Shown: positions 10,096 to 34,761 of the stretch, in pieces
How the letters are laid out: every line of letters starts with the position of its first letter
Position numbering within the stretch: the stretch's first letter is position 1
From: a virus
Reading direction: 5' to 3' (one strand)
Virus record (IMG/VR): IMGVR_UViG_3300037246_000888
Coordinates: 1-35,213 of that record
Length of the DNA stretch: 35,213 nt
The notes under the pieces: generated by a model
Database searches by the model: none
The model's input: only the letters and a program-made list of their open reading frames with translations
What the model was told of the DNA's origin: nothing
Position numbers and translations under genes: made by a program

Positions 10096-10257
10096 TTAAC
10101 ATGTCACGAACAGCATAAACAGCCCAGCCACGATAGCCATTAGAACAAGGCCGGTTATAGCTTGTGGCGACCAGCCGATCTCCGCGCCGCAGTGAGGACA
10201 CGATAAAGCGTCTGACGATATTTCCTTGTTGCAGTCCTTACAGTTTATTGTGGACAT
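10096..10257 (-). CDS. zinc-ribbon plus transmembrane mini protein
   Basis: A 53-residue protein with a double CxxC ribbon (CKDC at 6-9, CPHC at 20-23) followed by one hydrophobic helix (AITGLVLMAIVAGLFMLFV). This is the zf-ribbon plus TM layout found in many short bacterial membrane proteins. The strong site GGAGGTGATTAA precedes the ATG, inside the 3' end of the methyltransferase gene (13-nt overlap). Partner unknown. Confidence 0.75.
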   Translation of the reverse strand: MSTINCKDCNKEISSDALSCPHCGAEIGWSPQAITGLVLMAIVAGLFMLFVTC

Positions 10258-10871
10258 TTAATCACCTCCTTTAGATTATTAGCTTCAAAAACTGCCCGTG
10301 CAAATCTAGGTGGCGTCTCGCTTCGTTTTTCGGCCCTGTCTGGAGATGGCGGCATTCGATGTATTTTGCCAGTTTCGGTGGGTTCCACCCGGTTTTTGGG
10401 TGGCATTATAAATCCGTTGCCTGTCCAAAGGTGGGTTTTTTTCGTCCACGGGTCGCCATAATCACAAGGATCGAAAACATAATCCGGCTTTCGCCAGTAA
10501 GTGCTTACTGTGCTGACAGGGTTTTCAATCATATATGGACATTCTAACATTTCTGCAACATCAATGCAAAGCTTAAATAATTCAAGGGCCTCGATTAATT
10601 TTCCCAGACCTTTATCCTTAAACCATCTTGCTCCACTCACCGCAACATCAGTACATGGTGGAAAAAAGAAAGCTATTGCCGCCTCATGTTTATGCCCAGC
10701 TACAAAATCATGCCAATTATGTCGTCTGACATCACAGCCTATTTTTCCTATCTTTCCATCATTGGTATAACCACTTGGATGTTTTTTATCAAAACACATT
10801 GCCCAATAACCGGCTTCAATCCACGGTTTTACCATAATTGTCGAATAATCAAAAACACTTAGAATCATCAT
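10245..10871 (-). CDS. C5-cytosine DNA methyltransferase (compact phage type)
   Basis: A 208-residue enzyme resembling short Dcm-like phage methyltransferases. A degenerate motif I (LSVFDYSTIMVKPWIEAGYW) is followed by the catalytic FFFPPCTDVAVSG (Pro-Cys) and ENPVSTVSTYWRKPDYVFDP, corresponding to the ENV motif, then GDPWTKKTHLWTGNG. It is shorter than classical C5 enzymes and no clear target-recognition domain is visible. It may protect phage DNA from host restriction or act with the radical SAM enzyme encoded 87 nt upstream. The start has AAAGGA 8 nt before the ATG. Confidence 0.8.
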   Translation of the reverse strand: MMILSVFDYSTIMVKPWIEAGYWAMCFDKKHPSGYTNDGKIGKIGCDVRRHNWHDFVAGHKHEAAIAFFFPPCTDVAVSGARWFKDKGLGKLIEALELFKLCIDVAEMLECPYMIENPVSTVSTYWRKPDYVFDPCDYGDPWTKKTHLWTGNGFIMPPKNRVEPTETGKIHRMPPSPDRAEKRSETPPRFARAVFEANNLKEVIKCPQ

Positions 10872-10958: not shown

Positions 10959-11771
10959 TTATCCTTCCATCTCGTTATGAATCATTATAGGGCGTCGCCA
11001 TTTTCTAGCTAGACGACCCCATTCAGACGCTGGCAATTTAGAATCATCTTCGCCACGATATACCATCGCATACGGCAAAAATCCGCACTCGTAAATAAAT
11101 TTCAATCTATCCTCTGCATCTTTTAAATTATCGCCCGGAATACCAATCAAAACATAACATCGTTTCTTACGACGATCTAACCATGAAAGCCACTTACTTG
11201 CTTTCATCATTCGCTCTGCAATTTTTGCGTCATCGAATGAAAAGAAAAGCTCTCTAATTTTCAAAGCGCTCAATTGGTTAATTGTCCATTCATTCAATAG
11301 GCGAATATCTAACCCCCCCGAAAACGTGACTTGACGCTTTTGTTCTCGTAGCATTTTAAATACTTTCATCTGATGACTTTTCGGCGTTGCTAAGAAATTA
11401 TTATCTTGAACAATCCAACCACCATTAATCGAGATCGTTTGTATTTCGCCTTCCATTTTTGGCACCCTGCAAAACCAACAGTGTCGTGGACAACCACGGG
11501 AGGTTATCGTTATACCTTTTTTTAAATATAATCCGGGCGTAAATTCATTGGCGAGTGAATTAAAAGCAGGGCCACCCAGCTTTGTAGGTAGAAACATTCC
11601 CCAAAATTTAGCCAACCTTTCACCCTCTGCTCGATCCCATGTGAAAGTAACGGATACGTGAGCCTCGTTGGCCTCTGGGATCCATGCCGGGAATGGTGGA
11701 TTACCAATAAATACCATCTCGTCGTCGGGTGTATGAGATGTTCTTTGAGGGAAGACGCGAATTATCTCCAT
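10959..11771 (-). CDS. radical SAM enzyme
   Basis: A 270-residue protein with the CxxxCxxC 4Fe-4S signature (GCPRHCWFC; C94, C98, C101), preceded by KKGITITSR and followed by IVQDNNFLA and GGLDIRLL, which are strands of a partial TIM barrel. The ~85-residue N-terminal part (VFIGNPPFPAW, VSVTFTWD, KLGGPAF) resembles the region preceding the barrel in B12-type radical SAM proteins, but it is too short for a full cobalamin domain. The reaction is unknown. It is separated from the C5-methyltransferase only by a 26-codon frame, which suggests, but does not show, DNA or RNA modification. It is not QueE by its context: no queuosine-pathway genes are seen. Confidence 0.85.
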   Translation of the reverse strand: MEIIRVFPQRTSHTPDDEMVFIGNPPFPAWIPEANEAHVSVTFTWDRAEGERLAKFWGMFLPTKLGGPAFNSLANEFTPGLYLKKGITITSRGCPRHCWFCRVPKMEGEIQTISINGGWIVQDNNFLATPKSHQMKVFKMLREQKRQVTFSGGLDIRLLNEWTINQLSALKIRELFFSFDDAKIAERMMKASKWLSWLDRRKKRCYVLIGIPGDNLKDAEDRLKFIYECGFLPYAMVYRGEDDSKLPASEWGRLARKWRRPIMIHNEMEG

Positions 11772-22562: not shown

Positions 22563-23777
22563 ATGTTACCAAGACGAACAAATGAACAACTACTTGCCGA
22601 CCTTGATTCTGCGATGAAGGCGGCAATAACCACAACCACGGCAGGGACATCAATACTGAATCCAACTCAGTTTGAGCGCTATGTTCAGGCCATGCAAAAA
22701 GACGCGAACATTCTCGCGATGGCGCGACAGACAGTAATGACAACCAACATTTACGACATTAACAAGGTCGGCTTTTCAGCCCGGATAATGGGAGCGCCGG
22801 TCACCGAAGGAACCGAGCGAGATGTCGCCACTTACGGTGTCGCCCCGGTATTCAGCAAGGTTCGCCTGACCGCCGTTGAGACTCAGGGTGTTGTCGGAAT
22901 CACAGACAAGCTGTTGAGACGCGCGGTGGAAAAAGGTAATTTCGAGAACTCTCTGGTATCGATGATCGGATCGCAGTCCGGTGTTGACATCGAAGACCTT
23001 GGACTGAACGGCGTTTCCGGTCATGCCACCGATACGTTCCTTGCCCTGCTCGATGGCTGGTTGGTTAAGGCCGGTCGGTACGCGCAGGAATTGACGAACG
23101 AGAATGTTTCCAGCACGTTCGCAACCATCGCCGCGCAAGTAACCAGAACCTTCGATCACGGTCAGGAAGGCGTCCCGATCAAGCCGGGAACTTACACCCT
23201 AGTATATGACGCTGGCCTTGTGGCCCATGATGACGGTTCAGGTGTGATTGTTGAAGACAATGCTTCAACCGTCGCAGGGACAATCGATTACGAAAGTGGT
23301 CATTTGAACCTGACAACCGCAGTCGCGGAAAAGACCTACACCTACGACTACGATGTCCTGAGCTTCGATCTTACCGCCGAGGACTACCCCGAAAACATGT
23401 TCGAGAGCATGTTGATTGCGGTGCCGAAACTATATTTCAGGAATCCTGGCGAGTTCAAGTTCCTCGTTCCGTGGGCAATCGAAAACACATACCGCACGCT
23501 GTTGAAGGCTCGCGGTACATCCCTCGGCGACGAAGCACAAACCAAGTCGGGCGGATTGGCTTATAAGGGCGTTCCCCTGCAAGTCAACCAGAACATGCCT
23601 AACGATCGGTCGCTCTTGACGCATCCCAACAACATGTTGTACGGCATCTTCCACGAAATCCAGCTGGAGCGTGAACGTGCTGCCCTGACGAAAATGAACA
23701 ACTTTATCGTCAACACCGAAGTGGCGTTCGACTTTGAAGAGGACGAAGCCGCCGTCGTTGCTATCATCGTAGCGTAA
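22563..23777 (+). CDS. major capsid protein (HK97-fold) with inserted beta module
   Basis: A 404-residue HK97-type capsid protein, by position after the protease and by pattern (ILNPTQFERYVQAMQKD, VTEGTERDVATYGVAPVFSKVRL, FENSLVSMIG, FKFLVPWAIENTYRTLL, GVPLQVNQNMPND). Residues ~208-268 form an inserted beta module (VAHDDGSGVIVEDN, GTIDYESGHLNLT, TYTYDYD) also found in the tail tube protein. Such an insert could project from the shell. The strong site AAAGGAG and a downstream stable hairpin suggest high expression. Confidence 0.88.
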   Translation: MLPRRTNEQLLADLDSAMKAAITTTTAGTSILNPTQFERYVQAMQKDANILAMARQTVMTTNIYDINKVGFSARIMGAPVTEGTERDVATYGVAPVFSKVRLTAVETQGVVGITDKLLRRAVEKGNFENSLVSMIGSQSGVDIEDLGLNGVSGHATDTFLALLDGWLVKAGRYAQELTNENVSSTFATIAAQVTRTFDHGQEGVPIKPGTYTLVYDAGLVAHDDGSGVIVEDNASTVAGTIDYESGHLNLTTAVAEKTYTYDYDVLSFDLTAEDYPENMFESMLIAVPKLYFRNPGEFKFLVPWAIENTYRTLLKARGTSLGDEAQTKSGGLAYKGVPLQVNQNMPNDRSLLTHPNNMLYGIFHEIQLERERAALTKMNNFIVNTEVAFDFEEDEAAVVAIIVA

Positions 23778-23846: not shown

Positions 23847-24338
23847 ATGAAACGCTTTCTAACCCAAAAACTTACGCCGGTTATGACAATCCTGCTGATA
23901 CTGCTTTTCGTGTCTTCGGCCTATGCAACTTTCGCGCTGGGGACGAAGTTGCGAGTGCGAGTAACTACCAACGTGAATCAGTGGGTACAGTCTGTATCCG
24001 ATTTAACAAGCGTACAGACGATCTTCGCTGGACATTCAATCGCAAACTGTAAACGTGTTTTAATCTCAGTGGATAATACCTCCGCAAATTATCTCACGGA
24101 TTTAGACATCCGGTTGAGTGATGATAACAACAACATGGCAGATTCTTATGATATTGTAGGGGGTGTATCTTCCGGCGCTTTTCTTAATACCGGTTGGAGT
24201 GATTGCACCGTAACCTTGGCGGCGACTACAAAATGCTATGCACTCTTGCCGTCTAACTCTGGATTCACGCACGTTGATTTAACTGCTGCAGCGACGACAG
24301 TTGCAACAATCACAACGGAACTGAATTGCTGGCGATAA
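23847..24338 (+). CDS. secreted four-cysteine protein between capsid and connector genes
   Basis: A 163-residue protein with an obvious signal peptide: basic start (MKRFLTQK), hydrophobic core (VMTILLILLFV) and SSAYA before residue 28. The mature part is beta-like, Ser/Thr/Asn-rich, with four cysteines (C68, C120, C130, C161), enough for two disulfides. There is no lipobox. The gene sits where head decoration proteins usually lie and is bracketed by two U-less hairpins. AAGGAG precedes the ATG by 10 nt. No family recognised. It may be an exported phage factor, a moron-like cargo gene, or a virion protein whose N-terminus is not a real export signal. Confidence 0.75.
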   Translation: MKRFLTQKLTPVMTILLILLFVSSAYATFALGTKLRVRVTTNVNQWVQSVSDLTSVQTIFAGHSIANCKRVLISVDNTSANYLTDLDIRLSDDNNNMADSYDIVGGVSSGAFLNTGWSDCTVTLAATTKCYALLPSNSGFTHVDLTAAATTVATITTELNCWR

Positions 24339-24344
24339 ATTGAT

Positions 24345-24368
24345 GTGGGGAGCCTCACGGCTCCCCAC
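24345..24368 (+). other. 10-bp hairpin after the secreted-protein gene
   Basis: Arms GTGGGGAGCC (24345-24354) and GGCTCCCCAC (24359-24368) with loop TCAC. It is followed by GCCTTAAAGG, so it is not a classical terminator. It lies between the stop and the ribosome site of the next gene. Confidence 0.75.
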
Positions 24369-24386: not shown

Positions 24387-25832
24387 ATGGCAGTATACAC
24401 ATACGGATCGGGCGGGACTTATGCTTCACCACAAGCGGCGGTAGACGCATTATTTGTTGATGTCAGCACTAATACATTTACCGAGCCTCATTATATCCGT
24501 GGAATGGCTGGAACCTATGATGTTGAATCGGGCGAGATATTCGTTGTCGATCTTCCGGAATTATCTCCGACATCTGCCTTTCAATTAATTTTTGATTGTG
24601 ATGGAATTGTAAAATGGCGCGGTGCGAATAAAGCCACACATGAATTATGCTTGCTGGCTGGAGTTGAATATGTTTTATTTTCTTGCATTCAATTCATCGG
24701 TCAGGTTCTTAATGTTGTTAATAATTCGGTTGGAAACGAAGAGGGAGTAACTTTCGAGGATTGTCAAATTGGTAATATCGAATCACCGGAGGATACTGAT
24801 GTTGTGCATCTTTGCAACCTTGATAAATTAACTCAACTTGCGGTGATTCGTTCTATTATTGTCACCGAGGGTAAGGCCATCTATATGGATAATTCATCGA
24901 ATGATGGCGCTATTATTATTTCGATAGTCAATTCAGTTATCCAAACGCTTGACAGCCATTGCGTTGAGAACAAGCAAAGTCTTGTGACAGCTTTAATATA
25001 TCTGCATTCAACTTTCATTGCTGAGAATGGAGCGAATTATTTTGACGTGCAAGCTTCGCCCGGTGGGGCTTTACTTTATGCTTTAATAAATTGTATTTTT
25101 AAAACAACGAATAGTACCGATGCTTGTGTCGCATTTACGAGCCTTCCACAATTCGTTGCAAATCCATTATCGAGTGATTATAATTGCTTTAATCCTGCGA
25201 CTGCTGGTGCGCTTATAAGTCTATTAAATGGTGCGGCTGTTTACGACCTCGAAGCTGTGCAAGAAAATACGAACACGAATTTCAATTCTTTCGAAGATGA
25301 TCCGTTGTTAAATGATGATTGGACTTTACAAGCTGACAGTCCTTGTATCGGGACAGGAACGTATATCGCTGGCGCTGATGCGAATGGTGTTCCTCGAACT
25401 TTGCAAGACATCGACATTGGAGCGATTCAGATTTCAACGAGTGGTTATTGCACTCTGGCTCAAGTTCTGGCAGTGATTAAAGTTGATCCGGTGGACATCG
25501 GAAAAGATAGTATTGTCGAAAGGAATGCCGCGATACAAAATTGGATCGTCGAGATGTCTGCTTTGATCGATGATTATTGTGGACAGAGTTGGACGGAGGC
25601 GACCGTTCCTCGATCTATAGCGAACACATGCGCTAGGATGGTTGCGAACTTTATTGTTGCGGTAATACAAAGAAATAAATCTCCCATCGTAAAAGTGGGA
25701 GAATATACAATACGAAATGCTTCGGATAAAATCTTTACTGATGACATTAAACTTGTGTTGGCTCAAAATTACAAAAAGCGGCCATTGGGTATTGCGATGG
25801 GTTCGTTAGACCCGGATAAATACGATGAGTAA
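24387..25832 (+). CDS. beta-helix domain fused to head-tail connector
   Basis: A 481-residue fusion. Residues 1-349 look like a right-handed parallel beta-helix: repeated short strands (VTFEDCQIGNI, LAVIRSIIVTEG, IIISIVNSVI, LIYLHSTFIAENG, LYALINCIFKTTNS), ending with the signature DSPCIGTGTYIAGADANG and DIGAIQ. Residues 353-481 resemble gp6-like head-tail connectors (YCTLAQVLAVIKVD, IQNWIVEMSALIDDYCGQSW, ARMVANFIVAVIQ). The start at 24387 follows AAAGGATAAAAGA; a GTG at 24345 lies in the hairpin. Connectors are normally about 100-130 residues, so the helix is an added appendage at the neck. Confidence 0.8.
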   Translation: MAVYTYGSGGTYASPQAAVDALFVDVSTNTFTEPHYIRGMAGTYDVESGEIFVVDLPELSPTSAFQLIFDCDGIVKWRGANKATHELCLLAGVEYVLFSCIQFIGQVLNVVNNSVGNEEGVTFEDCQIGNIESPEDTDVVHLCNLDKLTQLAVIRSIIVTEGKAIYMDNSSNDGAIIISIVNSVIQTLDSHCVENKQSLVTALIYLHSTFIAENGANYFDVQASPGGALLYALINCIFKTTNSTDACVAFTSLPQFVANPLSSDYNCFNPATAGALISLLNGAAVYDLEAVQENTNTNFNSFEDDPLLNDDWTLQADSPCIGTGTYIAGADANGVPRTLQDIDIGAIQISTSGYCTLAQVLAVIKVDPVDIGKDSIVERNAAIQNWIVEMSALIDDYCGQSWTEATVPRSIANTCARMVANFIVAVIQRNKSPIVKVGEYTIRNASDKIFTDDIKLVLAQNYKKRPLGIAMGSLDPDKYDE

Positions 25833-26187
25833 ATTAGTAGAAAATGAATTTCTCTCCATTGATATTATGGGGATGGAATCGATACCGAAAGATGCTGTGG
25901 AGATAATCGATTATGCTATCACATTGACGGGGCTGGCATTACAACCTCAAATAGTAATAGAGGAACCAATCGATCAGGGTTTCTTGCGGGAATCAACACA
26001 ATTGCCAAGAGTCGTTGACCAATTTGAGCGAGTTATCGAGATCGAGGCGAACTATTGGCGACCTGTTCATTTCGGTGTTCGTGGTACAAACAGAAAACCC
26101 AACCCGTTCATTGATCGAGCGATTGCTACAGTAGAGCCACGGATCGAAGAGTTTGTTCAAATTGCGATAGACGAGGTAATAAGATAA
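25825..26187 (+). CDS. HK97 gp10-like head-closure / tail-attachment protein
   Basis: A 120-residue protein with the family pattern: hydrophobic helix (DYAITLTGLALQPQ), EEPIDQGFLRESTQL (the D-x-G-x-L-R turn), EANYWRPVHFGVRG and NPFIDRAIATVEP near the end. It overlaps the connector stop as ATGAGTAA. Gene order connector, gp10-like, terminator matches HK97-type phages. It joins head and tail. Confidence 0.8.
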   Translation: MSKLVENEFLSIDIMGMESIPKDAVEIIDYAITLTGLALQPQIVIEEPIDQGFLRESTQLPRVVDQFERVIEIEANYWRPVHFGVRGTNRKPNPFIDRAIATVEPRIEEFVQIAIDEVIR

Positions 26188-26636
26188 TGCAGACATGGGA
26201 ACGAATGGCATTGATCGAAGCTGAAATTGGTAAAGTTTTAATGGCCGCCGATCTCGGAATTAAGATCAATGGGATTATTTTCGGTGCAAAGCTCCGATCT
26301 GGCAGCGTTAATCCGCCACAAATATGGGTACGTCCAGTTGCAACGCCAATAGACGATGAGACGATGGGGCTCAGTGAATATTGGCGTTCACGATATGTTG
26401 TTATTGGAATGGTGAAAGACTTAAATCCAACCAAGGGATTTAATTTAGCCCGGGAACTTGCCTTGAAAGCAAGTGCTGAATTTGTTAAAACTTCCGACGC
26501 ACGGCATCTTAATAATTTGTGCGATGACATTGTTCGCACCGGCTTAATTCCGGTTTATGATAATATCACTGACGATGGCGCTATTCATGGCGCTGGCGTT
26601 TCAATAGAAATTAGATTCGATACAAAGGAGGCATAA
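26187..26636 (+). CDS. tail terminator protein
   Basis: A 149-residue protein at the tail-terminator (gpU-like) position between the gp10-like and tail tube genes. It has a helical start (WERMALIEAEIGKVLMAAD), strands IWVRPVATPIDD and YVVIGMVKDLNP, a helix FNLARELALKASAEFV and a final IHGAGVSIEIRFDTK strand, consistent with that alpha/beta fold. Its ATG overlaps the upstream stop (TAATG). Confidence 0.65.
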   Translation: MQTWERMALIEAEIGKVLMAADLGIKINGIIFGAKLRSGSVNPPQIWVRPVATPIDDETMGLSEYWRSRYVVIGMVKDLNPTKGFNLARELALKASAEFVKTSDARHLNNLCDDIVRTGLIPVYDNITDDGAIHGAGVSIEIRFDTKEA

Positions 26637-26637
26637 A

Positions 26638-28173
26638 ATGTCAATACGAAGATACTTCGGCCCCGCACTGGAATTGGTCTTTGGCACACAGCGAATAGCT
26701 CGATTCCATGAAAACGTAACGGCTCCAGGGATGGACAGTCCCGCCGAGCCATTTATCAACTATGAAGGTGGCATCGGACGTGCACCCACACGGTTCGTTC
26801 CCGGCGTCTATATCAGCGCAGGGGCACCTGAAATGGCGGTGGGCGTGTCAACCCTCTGGTACTGGTTGATGCTCGCCCTGGGCAGCCTGACGACCGATAC
26901 GGACATCGCAGCGTCCAGCGTTACGGATGTTGATGACGAAGCGCTCGGTTCAACCGATGCGGACGGGGATATATCCGAAACTATCGCCAACACCCCAGTG
27001 AATCCCGGTCAGTTTGTGTTGGATAATAACACCCCGGTTCCGGTCGCCGCTGATAACGGGTTCGGTAAGATTTATCCGCTCACCCTGGCGGACGATGAAG
27101 GCGGTGCTCAATTCCTGACCGGCGCTGCCGAAACAACCCTATCCGGGACGCTCGCCAAAAAGCCGATAGCACCGTTAACGTTCTTCTTGGAAGACGACAA
27201 CCCGACAGTCGTTGCGGAAGATAACGGGCACGGAAAGATTATCACGTCGGCTGGCGGTTCAACGGAAATCGGCACCATCGATTACCAGACTGGCGAATTT
27301 ACGCTTTCGGGTTTGCAAGTCGCCACACAGTATACTTGTGATTATTACGAGCGTGAAGCTGCAACCAAGATAGGCACCATTGACTACCTGACGGGCGATG
27401 TAAGAATCGTTGGCCTATCCGATACCAGCGAAGCGCACACATGCGATTATTCGTATGGCCTTTACGAGCATATCATCACGCCCGACCTCGAAGAGGATGA
27501 AATGCTCTCGTTCACCGCCGAGGCTGGTAAAGATAAATACGAGCACCAGTTTCCGGGCGTTGCATTAAACGGCTTTACGATCTCGGTTGAAAAAGCCATT
27601 GCGATGTTATTGCTGGATTGTCTCGGCGGAGTAGACATCAAAGCAACGATAAAAGACTCTGATGACCTTCTGGTTCCCCGTGAAGGCGCGATGGCATTTC
27701 ATAACATTCAATTCAAATACGCCGATTATCAAGGGGCACTCGTGGACATTAGTTGCGACGTTGATTCACTCTCGATGGTGGTCGCAAATAACGCCGACGC
27801 CGAAAGCGGAGTTGGCCTTAATAGTCGTTATCCTTGTAAGGTTTACCAGAACGCGCTCGACATCGATATTGAGCTGAAGCTGAAATACGATGATACCAGC
27901 GCCAAGGAAGACTTTTGGGGTGGCGCAACCGGGCCGACTGAAACGCCAACCGAAAAGGCTTGCGAGATAACCCTCGATGCTGGCGCTTGGGGTAATATCG
28001 TCCTGAACATTCCACGAATGCTTATCACCTCCGTTCCTCACACACCATCGGGACGGAGTCGCCTTGAGCAGACTGTATCGATCAAGGTTCTTTATGACGA
28101 ACTTGGCGAGGAGATGATAACCGCGACGGCCAACGTCACAACCTGTTACGATCAGAAATACGACCTATCGTAA
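26638..28173 (+). CDS. tail tube protein with inserted repeated beta modules
   Basis: A 511-residue major tail protein. The ends (LELVFGTQRIARFHENVTA...; then LYEHIITPDLEEDEMLSFTAE, FPGVALNGFTISVEKAIAM, REGAMAFHNIQFKYADY and a long C-terminal beta domain) match large tail-tube proteins. Residues ~118-275 are an insertion with two VAxDNGxGKI motifs (137-145, 192-201) and two GTIDYxTG motifs (212-219, 246-253). The capsid insertion matches this unit. AAAGGAGGCATAAA precedes the ATG, a strong site as expected for an abundant protein. Confidence 0.82.
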   Translation: MSIRRYFGPALELVFGTQRIARFHENVTAPGMDSPAEPFINYEGGIGRAPTRFVPGVYISAGAPEMAVGVSTLWYWLMLALGSLTTDTDIAASSVTDVDDEALGSTDADGDISETIANTPVNPGQFVLDNNTPVPVAADNGFGKIYPLTLADDEGGAQFLTGAAETTLSGTLAKKPIAPLTFFLEDDNPTVVAEDNGHGKIITSAGGSTEIGTIDYQTGEFTLSGLQVATQYTCDYYEREAATKIGTIDYLTGDVRIVGLSDTSEAHTCDYSYGLYEHIITPDLEEDEMLSFTAEAGKDKYEHQFPGVALNGFTISVEKAIAMLLLDCLGGVDIKATIKDSDDLLVPREGAMAFHNIQFKYADYQGALVDISCDVDSLSMVVANNADAESGVGLNSRYPCKVYQNALDIDIELKLKYDDTSAKEDFWGGATGPTETPTEKACEITLDAGAWGNIVLNIPRMLITSVPHTPSGRSRLEQTVSIKVLYDELGEEMITATANVTTCYDQKYDLS

Positions 28174-28793: not shown

Positions 28794-30809
28794 ATGGCCG
28801 ATCCTAAAGTTGCAATAACTATATCTGCGAAAGATCAAGCCTCAAAACAATTCAAGGCTGTTGGCTCTGCTGGCGCGAAAGCCGGAAAAGCTATCGCTCA
28901 AAATTGGAAGGCGGCGGCGGCTGGAATTGCGGCGGCTGGTGTCGGCCTCGAGGCGATGGCTCGACAGGCGCGAGATACTAATGTTGAGCTTGAGCAAATG
29001 GCTATCGCGATGGATACGGACGCCGAAACATTACGTCAATTGGCCCTGGAAACCTCGAACGTAACTTTTCCATTAAAAGACGTGACGCAGTTATTCAAGC
29101 TGGCTGGACAGCAAGGACTTGAAACAGGCGCACAGCTTCAGGAATTTGCTACGTTTTGGGATACGGTCGCGGATGCGATAAATGGTAATGCCGTTGCCCT
29201 TGCCGAAAATGCCATCGGCTTGCAAGCTTTCGGCGTCGCTGTTGGCAATGAAGCCGAAGCGATGGCCGCGCTTGGATTTATTCAATCCGATACAACCGCC
29301 GGCGTTGAAAAGTTTTTACAGACATTAACGAAATTGGCTCCGGACGCAGAAAAGGTTGGAGTAAGTATCAACGAGATGGCCGCAATTATCGGTATACTTG
29401 AGAAACGTGGTCTTTCAGGCAGGGTTGCAATCGCCGAACTGAATCAAGTAATGACAACAGCCGAGGGCCGTGAAGATTTCCTTCGAGGCATGAATCTTAA
29501 TAACAAGGAATTACAGGCGATGGTGGGCAACGTGGAGGCCGCAGAGGGCAAAATACAAGACATGGCGAACGTCGTTATGGAAAATATGACCATGACCGAA
29601 CGCGCCACCCATGCACTAAAAGAATTTGCCTTTCAGCATGGCGAACTTATGCAAGCAGCAAGTATGTTATCTGGGCCTTTGATGGCAATAGCCACCGGGA
29701 TAACCGCCATTGGATTGGCTGGCCCGGTTTTCGTTGCAACAGCGACGAAGATAATTGCTCAAATGAAACTCATTCAAGCCGAGGGCACAAAAACAGCCAT
29801 TGCATTAAAGGGAATTGGAAAAGGTGTCGGTGTAATGTCAGCAGCTTTTATCGGCTGGGAAGTTGGAACCATCCTCGGGAAATTTACAATCATCCAAAAG
29901 GGAGCGGCTTTTTGGGCGTTCGCCCTTTCACAAGCGATGGAGATTATTCAATTCAAATGGGAGCAACTTCAGGCAGTTTTCTCGGGTGATACTCTTGAAA
30001 AAGCATTTGAACGCCATGAGGCGCGTTTGGCTTCGTATAGTGACGCATTGGATGTAATGCTTGAAGAAACGACCGACGAATGGAAGACTGCTGAAATTGA
30101 ACGTACAAAGGCATCGGAAGAAGCAGTCGAGAAACGAATCGCAGCCGAGAAAAAATATCAAGCTGAAATTGAAGCGGCAATTGTGAAAGCTAAAGAAGCT
30201 GACGTTGCTTTCATGGAATGGGTCAATGCGGCCACGGAGGGTGTAGCTGAAGTAACAAGCGAGGTCGCCATACTCAGTGAAACAGTAATCGAGGCGGCGG
30301 CGGTGGCCGCACAATCTGAATGGATCGTTCCTGAACAAGCGGTTCCATCGGAAGCCTTTGAACGTGTAGACGAATTCGCAGAACATACAAGGGCTGCTGT
30401 AGCAGAAACCAGAAACGTTTTTGAATCTGCGACGGCTGTTGCTCAAGGATTATTTAGTGGACTTGCAAGTCAATCCGCAGAAATGTTTGATCGTTTAATC
30501 TCGGAAGGATACTCGGAGCTTGGTGCGCAACATGCTGTAACGCAATGGTGGCGTAAACAGTTACAAGCATCTAATTTAAATATTGCGATTATGGGTGAAG
30601 GTGGAATTGTAACCGCTCCGACATTAGCTTTAATAGGAGATGACGGCCCGGAAAAAGTTATCCCACTCGGTAGAGGAGATACTGGTAGCGGAACGACGAT
30701 CAATAATTTCAACTTCTCCGGTATCTTCACTGCGGAACCTGATCAAATGCGACAATTAACGCGTGAACTTTTACCATTTATTGAAACGGAAAACGCCCGT
30801 GCCCTCTAA
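28794..30809 (+). CDS. tape measure protein
   Basis: A 671-residue Ala-rich helical protein that fixes tail length. The N-terminus (VAITISAKDQASKQFKAVGSA) and the PhageMin-type block (LRQLALETSNVTFPLKDVTQLFKLAGQQGLETGAQLQEF) are typical. Membrane-like helices occur in the middle (LMAIATGITAIGLAGPVFV; VGVMSAAFIGWEVGTILG). The C-terminus has GEGGIVTAPTLALIGDDGPEKVIPLG, common in tape measures. Its short length predicts a tail near 100 nm. Confidence 0.87.
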   Translation: MADPKVAITISAKDQASKQFKAVGSAGAKAGKAIAQNWKAAAAGIAAAGVGLEAMARQARDTNVELEQMAIAMDTDAETLRQLALETSNVTFPLKDVTQLFKLAGQQGLETGAQLQEFATFWDTVADAINGNAVALAENAIGLQAFGVAVGNEAEAMAALGFIQSDTTAGVEKFLQTLTKLAPDAEKVGVSINEMAAIIGILEKRGLSGRVAIAELNQVMTTAEGREDFLRGMNLNNKELQAMVGNVEAAEGKIQDMANVVMENMTMTERATHALKEFAFQHGELMQAASMLSGPLMAIATGITAIGLAGPVFVATATKIIAQMKLIQAEGTKTAIALKGIGKGVGVMSAAFIGWEVGTILGKFTIIQKGAAFWAFALSQAMEIIQFKWEQLQAVFSGDTLEKAFERHEARLASYSDALDVMLEETTDEWKTAEIERTKASEEAVEKRIAAEKKYQAEIEAAIVKAKEADVAFMEWVNAATEGVAEVTSEVAILSETVIEAAAVAAQSEWIVPEQAVPSEAFERVDEFAEHTRAAVAETRNVFESATAVAQGLFSGLASQSAEMFDRLISEGYSELGAQHAVTQWWRKQLQASNLNIAIMGEGGIVTAPTLALIGDDGPEKVIPLGRGDTGSGTTINNFNFSGIFTAEPDQMRQLTRELLPFIETENARAL

Positions 30810-33800
30810 AAGTTATCGAGTTCATATCGGTCGGGCTGGAAAAGCAATTCAACCCGATTCATCAGCACTTCAAAAGTTTGGGAATGTTCTTTTTCTCGCT
30901 GGTACTAGTATAGAATATACTGGAGTTGGCGCGACAATCGATTTCGGTAAAACAACCGGCGTTCAAAAGATTGGACAAATATTCGAATTCACAACAGCCA
31001 AACAGTTTATTGCTTTAAGGGTAAGCCATAACGAAGTTGGATTTCCAACAGATGATTTGATTGTTAAGGTTTATAATTCTGATAACGAAGTTATCGCAAC
31101 ATCTAATGTCCTTGACGCTGGCAGCATTTGTGATGTTTTCTATGTCACAATTGAGCCAGATACAAAGTATTTTTGGGCGATTGAAAGAACGGGTGCGGCT
31201 GACGATGCGAATTACTATCAAATTATTAAGGCTACAACACCGCCTTCTCCCGATCCTGGCAATGCGATTCAATATGAAAGCGGAATATGGACCGAACTAC
31301 CCTCCGATGACATTCGACATCTTCAATTATATGACGCTGGCGATTACACTATGCACGGCGCAAAAATCAAATATGTTGGTTCTGCGGACAGTATAATCTT
31401 AACGTCCGTTTCTTTTTATGGTGAATCTTTCGGCCCGATCCCGCGCGCGGTTGGTTGTGAGCTTCAAGACGATAGCCATGACCTTATTCAACTGTCGGAA
31501 AACTTTCGAGATCACAACGGCAAGTGGACTTTTTATTTCTCAGAAATCACTTTAACTAAAAACGTGGATTATTATTTAATGTGCTTCGCTGATTGTCTCG
31601 AAGGCGATGTCATTGGCAGCCATCATTTCCCAAATTCAAATTGGTATGGAGAATATTCAACCGATCCGGGCGACGGCAATTATGGCGACGATTCAGAGTT
31701 ATATATTCAAAGGGCCCGTCGATCCGGCCCGTCATATTCAACTGATAGCAATGTTCCGAAGATCGAGGTATCATACCTTTTGCCGGATGCCGATATAACT
31801 GAATATGTTAAAAGTGTAGGCTATAATTCCGGGAAAAATGATGTTGATGGTTCTATTGTTGTTGGCACTGGTGACATTACTTTAAAAAATGATAACGGAG
31901 AATTCAATCCTGATAATGTAAATTCGCCCTTTTATGGAATCTTTGACATTATGTCCATCCTTACAATTTCATTCTACTGGGGTAATTATGGCGGCCCGAA
32001 ATTTACCGGCTTTATTAAAGATATAATCCCGACGCCGTCTACCGGCCAGCAACTTGCAACCGTCTATTTTGAAGATTTATTCTATCAATTCAAGAAAACT
32101 AAAATATCGCTCGGCGCTTTTTCCGGGAATGTTGCCCATTTGTTAATTCGTGATGTGTTAGTTGCAATGGGACTGACTGAGGAAGATTGGGATTTAGATT
32201 CAAATAGCATTATCGAATTAGCTGGTACAACATGGGACGATAAGCTCGCCATCGAATGCTTAAATGACATTGTCGAGGCCGGGCAGCACCATCATTTTAT
32301 TGACGGCGATGGAAAATATATATTCAAATCAAACCAATGGCTATCAAAGCAAGCCCCGGAATGGTATTTTAACGAGCTTAATTCCCATGCACCGAAGATC
32401 GGATGGAAGATCGATTCCATAAAGAATAGTGTTAGTGTTGATTATAATGACACGCCACAAATCGAACAGGATTTCGATTCGCAATCGAAATATGGATTTA
32501 ACGAAATCATTATTGATAACGCATTAACTCCCGATGCACTTTATGCGACATTCGTTGCTCGATTCATCCTTAATAATTTCTCATATCCCGGCTTTGCATT
32601 GGAATTTACCATCAACAATCTCTGGCCGGAATGTGCGGCCCTTGAAAACGGGACGGTCATTCAATACACAAATGCTAATCTCGGTATCGATGATAAATAT
32701 GTCGTTGTTGGCTTAACTCCATCTTTCGATATATCGAAACGGCACACCACGATTGTAAAATGTCGCAAGTGGATAAAGCCCATAGCTGAACAGCTTGCCT
32801 CACACGTTCCGATAGATGGTAATAAGTGGATTGACCTCAATCCAGATTCTACCGAAGTTTCGCAAGGTTTCACACTTGGAATAGATGAGTCCGTTCCATA
32901 TTCGGTTGACTTCACATTCAAGCATCAACTTGATGCTGATACTTATATCACCGTTTCGATCTTTGCCACCGACGTTGACGGATACCCGACTGGGGACGTC
33001 CTGGCTACCAGTGAGCCGATTTTAATTCCTTACACGGCAACTGACGGAACCTATACGGCGTTATTTCCATCGAAAGAACGAATTGAACTAACTGTGGATG
33101 TTCAATATGCTTTTGTCATTGAGACGCCGAAATCAACGGAATTTTTCAGGCCATTTGCTTATCCTGATAATTTGATTTCTTTCGGTGAGAGCACGACGGA
33201 CTTTAAAGCTTTCGGTCAATCATTCGAGATCGATGCAGAAACCGAAGTGGATTCAATGGCGATTGCGCCTACATGGAATACCCTAGCAACTTTAAATTTT
33301 GGAACGTATGTTGAAATATTTGAAGCCGATCTTGACGGTTATCCTGACGGTGCGGCGGTGGCGACATCTCGCGTGGTAAATCTTTCAGTTTCTGGAAATG
33401 GTAAACAGGTTTATGTTTTCGACACACCGCCAACTTTAGCTGCTGCCACTCCATATTGTTGGCGACTGAATGAGGCATTTCCCAGCGATAAAACTTTTTT
33501 CATTAACAATCTTATTCAACAACAGGTCGTTGTAGGGGGAGTACCTGCTGGCATAGGAACACCATTTGTTTATACGAAATGTGGTCAAACTTTCGAAGAC
33601 TCGCGCGATATTGTGAATCCTACAATATCTATTATTGGTTATTACAATACTGGCGGCGCGGCAACGGAAATTACTTGTAAATTATACGATACTGTTGACA
33701 GTCTTCCCGATTCAGTTGTAAAAGATGGCGGTAGTTTTACAATGCCACCGAACAGGAATTTTCAATTAACCAAGAAATTTGAAGCAATAACATTAACAGC

Positions 33801-34761
33801 GGATACCCTTTATGCTTTTGTCCTTGAAACTTTTGATTCGAGTATAATCTTCCGTGCCGCTGTTTCTACTAATGACAATTATCTTGACGGCGAGGTGGTT
33901 GTCGCTGCGAACGGAGTATGGCAAGCTTTCAGGTCTGGTAATGATCTGTATATGATTATTACCGCCGAGAAATATTCAAATCAGTGGCAATGCCAGGGGC
34001 GCAATGATGCTGCTTATGCTGATGGTCATGCCTGGAAGCAACTCAGTGATGACTCCTATGTGGACATGGGTAGTGATGAAGATTTTTGGTTCGCTCTAAG
34101 TGCTGCCGAGGAAAACCGTTGGGAGATATGGGGACAACACGACGATCCTCGCGTTTTGCCTCAAGGGATAGTTTCTCAATTTATTTCCGATTGGGAAAAT
34201 CCTTTATGCCCTAACATCCTCGATGGTTGTGAGGCCGAAGATTGGACAGAAGACGCAAGAGCAACACCGGAAATATTAAACGATGTTGATTTAATCCATA
34301 ATGATAATTCGCTCGATCTCGGAAAAGATAATCATGGTGGAAACGCATTTCAGTTTGGTTATTCACAAGTGACAGCTGAATCACACGACGTTGAAGATCA
34401 CAACGTTGGAATGTGGCTTAAAATTAAGCAGGATGCTTATGATGTTTTACGAGATAACGTGGCATTGGTTTGTCTCCGTATTGTGATAAGAACGAGTTCG
34501 GGAAATTATTATAAGCGGGAATGGATAAAAGATGATTTACCATTTGGTCCCGATGAATGGTATTGCTTACATGGTGATTTGCCGGGTGATTGGGATGAAG
34601 TTGGGGCTCCCGATCCGAACGACATTAACGAACTACAACTTATTGGGTGGACGCATTTACAAGGCGATACCTTCGACAGCGGCAAAATGGGCATGGATTT
34701 CTGGTTTTATGCTGATGAATTTCATGCTTGCGGACTCGACTTTGAATTGAGGTATTATTAA
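30799..34761 (+). CDS. large multidomain tail tip / baseplate hub and receptor-binding protein
   Basis: About 1320 residues, the only tail-tip gene between tape measure and lysis genes. Residues ~1-320 are beta domains (IDFGKTTGVQKIGQIFEF, DLIVKVYNSD). Residues ~330-660 look like a hub domain (DADITEYVKSVGYNSGKNDV, GTGDITLKNDNGEFNPDNV, FTGFIKDIIPTP, ALENGTVIQYTN). Residues ~665-1090 hold repeated beta units of choice-of-anchor type (TYITVSIFATDVDGYPTGDV; YVEIFEADLDGYPDGAAVA; ITCKLYDTVDSLPDSVV). The last ~190 look like a jelly-roll binding domain. The GTG at 30799 overlaps the upstream stop by 11 nt; an earlier GTG (30763) would overlap more. Receptor binding is inferred. Confidence 0.78.
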   Translation: MPSKSYRVHIGRAGKAIQPDSSALQKFGNVLFLAGTSIEYTGVGATIDFGKTTGVQKIGQIFEFTTAKQFIALRVSHNEVGFPTDDLIVKVYNSDNEVIATSNVLDAGSICDVFYVTIEPDTKYFWAIERTGAADDANYYQIIKATTPPSPDPGNAIQYESGIWTELPSDDIRHLQLYDAGDYTMHGAKIKYVGSADSIILTSVSFYGESFGPIPRAVGCELQDDSHDLIQLSENFRDHNGKWTFYFSEITLTKNVDYYLMCFADCLEGDVIGSHHFPNSNWYGEYSTDPGDGNYGDDSELYIQRARRSGPSYSTDSNVPKIEVSYLLPDADITEYVKSVGYNSGKNDVDGSIVVGTGDITLKNDNGEFNPDNVNSPFYGIFDIMSILTISFYWGNYGGPKFTGFIKDIIPTPSTGQQLATVYFEDLFYQFKKTKISLGAFSGNVAHLLIRDVLVAMGLTEEDWDLDSNSIIELAGTTWDDKLAIECLNDIVEAGQHHHFIDGDGKYIFKSNQWLSKQAPEWYFNELNSHAPKIGWKIDSIKNSVSVDYNDTPQIEQDFDSQSKYGFNEIIIDNALTPDALYATFVARFILNNFSYPGFALEFTINNLWPECAALENGTVIQYTNANLGIDDKYVVVGLTPSFDISKRHTTIVKCRKWIKPIAEQLASHVPIDGNKWIDLNPDSTEVSQGFTLGIDESVPYSVDFTFKHQLDADTYITVSIFATDVDGYPTGDVLATSEPILIPYTATDGTYTALFPSKERIELTVDVQYAFVIETPKSTEFFRPFAYPDNLISFGESTTDFKAFGQSFEIDAETEVDSMAIAPTWNTLATLNFGTYVEIFEADLDGYPDGAAVATSRVVNLSVSGNGKQVYVFDTPPTLAAATPYCWRLNEAFPSDKTFFINNLIQQQVVVGGVPAGIGTPFVYTKCGQTFEDSRDIVNPTISIIGYYNTGGAATEITCKLYDTVDSLPDSVVKDGGSFTMPPNRNFQLTKKFEAITLTADTLYAFVLETFDSSIIFRAAVSTNDNYLDGEVVVAANGVWQAFRSGNDLYMIITAEKYSNQWQCQGRNDAAYADGHAWKQLSDDSYVDMGSDEDFWFALSAAEENRWEIWGQHDDPRVLPQGIVSQFISDWENPLCPNILDGCEAEDWTEDARATPEILNDVDLIHNDNSLDLGKDNHGGNAFQFGYSQVTAESHDVEDHNVGMWLKIKQDAYDVLRDNVALVCLRIVIRTSSGNYYKREWIKDDLPFGPDEWYCLHGDLPGDWDEVGAPDPNDINELQLIGWTHLQGDTFDSGKMGMDFWFYADEFHACGLDFELRYY

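Follow-up and report, generated by a model that had tools for sequence, protein, structure and literature searches.

A head-tail adaptor fused to a putative N-terminal beta-helix in an uncultured tailed virus

The window analysed here is the whole 35,213-base IMG/VR virus record IMGVR_UViG_3300037246_000888, and its subject is a single gene in which a head-tail adaptor is joined to a large N-terminal domain. The C-terminal ~130 residues of the product are assigned, on solid evidence from homology and modelling, to head-tail adaptors of the Ad1/gp6/gp15/Gp36 type, and the preceding ~350 residues are strongly indicated by their sequence to form a right-handed beta-helix. On balance, and with modest confidence, we propose that the adaptor would bear an outward collar of beta-helices that helps the virus to bind glycans on the host surface.

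The gene is one open frame from ATG to stop with no internal stops, exactly the fused gene that a first-pass annotation of this DNA had delimited. Its parts are given below with the evidence for each in brackets; L053 is an independent metagenomic virus contig that encodes the same two-domain protein.

24387-25832 (+): fusion gene, 481 aa, with an N-terminal beta-helix-like domain and a C-terminal head-tail adaptor (open frame; L053 homologue)
24387-25430 (+): N-terminal domain, residues 1-348, right-handed beta-helix-like, starting GSGGTYASPQAAVDAL...IRGMAGTY and ending DSPCIG...DIGAIQ (rung-motif test; choice_anch_Q; L053 alignment)
24747-25100 (+): five consecutive rung motifs at residues 121, 151, 178, 204 and 231, spacing 26-30 (0 of 2000 shuffles; positions identical in L053)
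25323-25430 (+): choice-of-anchor-Q-like C-cap, residues 313-348 (20.5 bits, E 4e-4, under the curated cut-off of 25 bits)
25431-25442 (+): junction ISTS, residues 349-352 (the start codon of bare relatives falls here)
25443-25829 (+): head-tail adaptor domain, residues 353-481 (confident model; structural and family matches)

Homology, gene position and structure all bear on the C-terminal domain. Its relatives in a tblastn search of a phage collection came only from methanogen viruses, namely Methanobrevibacter virus vir075 (38.8% identity, E 7e-14) and, more weakly, Drs3 (E 2e-7) and PhiF3 (E 3e-3). In all three the gene is flanked by the capsid gene on one side and by tail completion genes (HK97-gp10/terminator) on the other, the same position as here. 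Members of the adaptor family match the phrog_132 head-tail adaptor (3.6e-8), Phage_Mu_Gp36 (6.9e-5) and Phage_connect_1 (0.007), and members of the adaptor alignment also match phrog_1161 and phrog_442; the fusion protein's own copy reaches adaptor families weakly, by a link that runs through phrog_27112.

AlphaFold predicts residues 351-430 to be helical, with block means of 85-96 for the predicted local distance difference test (pLDDT). The nine best structural matches of the modelled domain are all adaptors, with Z of 7.8-11.7 on a scale where unrelated proteins reach at most 4.1 and where Z for helical domains can be inflated. They include Douge (Z 11.7, 111 aligned, 4.4 Å), HK97 gp6 (Z 9.2, 93 aligned, 3.4 Å), SPP1 gp15 (Z 8.4, 97 aligned, 4.7 Å), YqbG (Z 8.4), phiXacJX1 (8.3), Mu (8.0) and SaPI1 (7.8). 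The next nine are likewise neck or portal-region proteins, Sf6 gp7 and P22 gp4 among them. Residue 1-2 of the solved adaptors aligns to model residue 350-355. A Foldseek search of the PDB with the whole model gave no significant match, because most of the model is not confidently folded. The domain therefore shows the alpha-helical adaptor fold, the relation to known families and the gene position that characterize the class, and these lines agree with the ~130-residue C-terminal connector proposed at first pass.

The fusion is conserved. L053 is the best portal relative in IMG/VR (portal 71% identical), and its version of the protein has 487 aa and is 67% identical over its whole length. Synonymous sites between the two genes are near saturation, the ratio of non-synonymous to synonymous change (dN/dS) is at most 0.21 in every computable segment, and it is 0.09 in the junction stretch (residues 340-365). 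Because silent sites are near saturation with protein-level constraint throughout, the frame has long been kept in two separate lineages. The first-pass annotation had itself raised the possibility that two genes were joined through a lost stop codon or a fault of assembly. In favour of such an artefact, all other relatives have a separate adaptor gene beginning at the junction: bare adaptors in the alignment start at it or a few residues away. The second fusion, the near-saturated silent sites and the constraint across the junction refute this explanation, to which we assign next to no probability; as judged from these comparisons, the fusion is not an artefact. Near the junction the two copies share no start codon with a ribosome site, and an internal start yielding a bare adaptor was rejected as well.

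The fusion has been found in two viruses, this one and L053. In 43 viral loci from an alignment-based scan of viral contigs, the adaptor is a short open frame of 90-174 codons (contig ends truncate some), with no large N-terminal domain in any. L053 was the sole match when IMG/VR was scanned with the N-terminal alignment and the only contig matched by a DNA pattern for the DSPCIG...D..G ending; single-protein IMG/VR scans gave nothing, whether made with the capsid protein, the entire fusion protein or just its connector domain. The search for other connectors with an N-terminal beta-helix fusion, which had been proposed as a check, thus yielded one.

Evidence for the beta-helix comes mainly from an eight-position rung motif, whose five consecutive matches fall at the same positions in both homologues. 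The score of this chain was reached by none of 2000 shuffles, and the two fusion proteins rank 1 and 2 among 445 segments of other frames. The pattern is one of regular rungs of ~20-30 residues, in which hydrophobic and Asn/Cys/Ser positions stack. The ending DSPCIGTG...DIGAIQ, already noted at first pass, is present at residues 317-348 and lies within the sub-threshold match to NCBIfam choice_anch_Q (NF041518) listed above. The start of the domain presumably resembles that of pectinesterase-like beta-helices.

Several results weigh against a beta-helix. The rung motif, although generic, was composed after the sequence had been read. The L053 copy alone has no choice_anch_Q match, Pfam at E 10 gives no match for the domain, and its self-alignment repeat score is not above that of shuffles. 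AlphaFold, run with a single sequence and with an alignment of 30 rows, returned pLDDT of about 35 for residues 1-350 and no confident model; the alignment holds only two sequences there, to which we attribute the low confidence. Prediction of the full protein, suggested as a check of the beta-helix, was thus confident for the adaptor part and not for the remainder, and the beta-helix proposed at first pass keeps the support of the motif test and the sub-threshold family match but gains no confident three-dimensional model.

Searches for relatives of the N-terminal domain among phages, and of the whole protein among plasmids, gave nothing significant. Against 152 genomes from the phylum of the Methanobrevibacter genome L048, the N-terminal alignment had marginal matches only (E 0.0035 or worse, some in interrupted frames); NF041518 matched none of the 152, where controls were silent too, making that scan uninformative. 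The alignment's only PDB sequence matches, not significant with an E of 0.12, were to alginate lyases. These matches would suit an enzymatic collar, in which the beta-helix would attack extracellular glycan as a polysaccharide lyase or hydrolase, and many phage beta-helices are depolymerases. The weak alginate lyase match is limited to residues 26-120, however, no lyase or esterase family matches the domain, and the neck is a poor site for depolymerisation; we consider an enzymatic role improbable.

A beta-helix fused directly to an adaptor appears to be new, whereas neck beta-helices and two-domain adaptors are known separately. The neck passage structures (NPS) of lactococcal 936 and P335 phages likewise form a collar, level with the portal and adaptor, from which binding domains are displayed (PMC6669499, PMC10747895). 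Weak attachment to host cells has been shown for the carbohydrate-binding neck domain of 936 phages, and in two NPS groups, D and E, a beta-helix forms the end of the protein (PMC6669499). A collar of beta-helices, as envisaged at first pass, follows naturally when an adaptor that forms dodecamers is extended at its N-terminus. The NPS protein is encoded separately and consists of a BppU-like ring domain, a coiled coil and a C-terminal tip; in contrast, the beta-helix-like domain here is the N-terminus of the adaptor itself, with a four-residue junction and no fibre. With its beta-helix-like domain joined directly to the adaptor in one gene, the fusion protein falls outside the NPS class, which leaves the functional analogy unaffected.

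Staphylococcus phage 812 and Mycolicibacterium phage Mycofy1 have adaptors with an extra outer beta-sandwich domain (PMC12886913). The earlier statement that connectors are normally small and bare holds for the 43 other relatives but is too strong in view of these published exceptions. Their beta-sandwich contacts the capsid, in contrast to the ~350-residue beta-helix-like N-terminal domain described here. The bare adaptors of Methanobavirales (Drs3, PhiF3) and of vir075 resemble ours in sequence and gene position, and HK97 gp6, SPP1 gp15 and Mu Gp36 in fold and gene position; bare adaptors differ in having about 100-140 residues and an N-terminus without a domain, with short acidic tails in some. 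Choice-of-anchor Q surface proteins (NF041518) share the DSPCIGxG...DIGA ending followed by a variable anchor, but the score here is below the cut-off and the 'anchor' would be a phage adaptor. The archaeal tailed virus HFTV1 also has a dodecameric connector, gp26; the passages of its description consulted here report no N-terminal appendage for gp26, and the beta-helix sits in the tail fibre (PMC12494034).

Open-licence literature yielded neither neck or collar fibres fused to adaptors nor a described direct beta-helix/adaptor fusion, in line with the first-pass remark that no standard phage is known to have one. In the main text of a survey classifying 213 Ad1 adaptors, the terms 'fused', 'additional domain' and 'extra domain' are absent (PMC4362835).

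Solved neck structures show a dodecameric adaptor, with its C-terminal arm on the portal clip, hairpins lining the DNA channel and an N-terminal helix on the bundle (PMC9701221; Douge, PMC13033339; JBD30, PMC11445458). In SPP1 gp15 the C-terminus inserts in the portal clip and the N-terminus/helix 0 packs on helices 1-2 (PMC9701221). From this architecture we infer that a 350-residue N-terminal domain must lie outside as a collar. Twelve copies of the fused adaptor would sit beneath the portal, gripped via their C-terminal arms, each with a beta-helix on its free N-terminus. Too big for the DNA channel, these domains would project outwards as a collar of twelve rods, each of an estimated 12 rungs and 6 nm long at 26 residues per rung. 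The ring stoichiometry and the outside placement are extrapolated from the SPP1, Douge and 812 structures. The adaptor N-terminus seems to tolerate extension, because some bare relatives (L029, L026, L030, L036 and L020) carry acidic N-terminal tails of 17-33 residues (MPDEVDIEET...).

By analogy with lactococcal neck-passage proteins, such a collar would most likely add weak, high-avidity binding to host-surface glycans, but within the adaptor; host-surface binding is our hypothesis for its function. Identity between this virus and L053, taken per 20 residues, is mostly 40-60% in the middle rungs and 75-85% in the caps; the adaptor is 76% identical. Middle rungs that apparently change fast are as expected for a ligand face. 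The inserted domains shared by the capsid and tail tube (below) fit this reading too. Two points count against glycan binding by an outward collar: faster change of the middle rungs would look alike under relaxed constraint, and a bulky domain beside helix 0 could get in the way of that helix, which turns by 145 degrees when SPP1 assembles.

The main rival is that the collar reinforces or decorates the neck, bracing the portal-adaptor joint or shielding the capsid vertex without a ligand. Greater conservation of the caps and adaptor than of the middle rungs fits this, as do the inserted domains held by the capsid and tail tube (below). Bare adaptors nevertheless suffice in the 43 other relatives from the viral scan and in the isolates Drs3, PhiF3 and vir075, and to our knowledge beta-helices are rare as pure braces; we regard reinforcement as possible though rather unlikely. 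The N-terminal domain could instead be an assembly aid that keeps adaptors apart until they reach the portal and may then be cut off by the phage protease. SPP1 gp15 is monomeric before assembly, its N-terminal helix rotates on assembly (PMC9701221), and a putative phage serine protease is among the genes of this virus. However, 350 residues are far more than this would require, the junction has merely about four residues and the domain surface evolves quickly, so we hold an assembly role to be very improbable.

A more far-reaching form of the glycan-binding collar, which we think unlikely, is that the adaptor has become a twelve-armed receptor- or glycan-binding collar, making the genome gatekeeper part of host recognition and able to signal attachment to the DNA gate. 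If true, a lineage of methanogen-virus-like tailed viruses couples host recognition physically to the genome gate. Few parts of tailed viruses are as conserved and as restricted in size as adaptors, and a stable fusion shows that their N-terminus can bear a large outward cargo. The fusion would be a simple one-gene route to neck appendages, and a link between neck binding and genome gating becomes testable.

The right half of the record is a plus-strand head and tail module in the order terminase, portal, Mu-F, protease, major capsid protein, 163-aa protein and fusion gene, followed by the HK97-gp10/Neck1 protein, the probable tail terminator, the tail tube and the tape measure. The neighbouring genes are as follows.

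22563-23777 (+): major capsid protein, upstream neighbour, with an inserted domain common to the tail tube
23847-24338 (+): 163-aa protein encoded between capsid and fusion genes, its N-terminus resembling a signal peptide (conserved only in L053)
25825-26187 (+): tail completion/Neck1 protein (HK97 gp10-like), next gene (phrog_5, E 2e-7)
26187-26636 (+): probable tail terminator (position; gene order as in Drs3 and vir075)
26638-28173 (+): tail tube protein with inserted domains (Phage_tube_2, E 2e-5)

Residues 173-263 of the capsid protein and 146-236 of the tail tube are homologous (34% identity, E 8e-8). This inserted domain has the motif GTIDYxxG, is present a second time, in part, in the tube, and both proteins match phrog_6128 weakly. 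Since the two proteins share this domain, decoration of several rings seems a theme, and the whole virion looks decorated. The portal points to methanogen viruses, and the replication and methyltransferase genes to bacterial phages; we take the virus to be a probable uncultured relative of the tailed viruses of methane-producing archaea.

An upstream GTG start for the fusion gene (24345) was rejected: it lies inside a hairpin, and L053 uses instead the conserved ATG (MAVYTYG), which is preceded there by a purine-rich ribosome site. The hairpin, GC-rich and without a T-run, stands just 5' of the gene at 24345-24368 and at about 5573-5599 in L053. Its stems differ in sequence between the viruses, yet each pairs by eye, and it is a possible mRNA processing or attenuation element.

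The 163-aa protein has a Sec signal-peptide-like start, odd within a virion gene cluster; it has no Pfam or PHROG match and, of the loci retrieved, is restricted to this virus and L053 (67% identity). In relatives the place between the capsid and adaptor genes is variable, containing a 231-codon frame with TGSDLTIAGATG-like sequence in L055 (13486-14178) and a 185-codon frame with repeated LKKWHQLGPHLRRSESDRWNYL units in L069 (8133-8687). Elsewhere in the window, a radical SAM protein (phrog_9298; 10959-11771, -) lies beside a phage DNA methyltransferase (10245-10871, -), a possible modification pair. The 1332-aa tail protein at 30763-34761 apparently contains several repeat units with 'DGYPxGxxxATS' motifs, as judged by eye, and is possibly host-binding.
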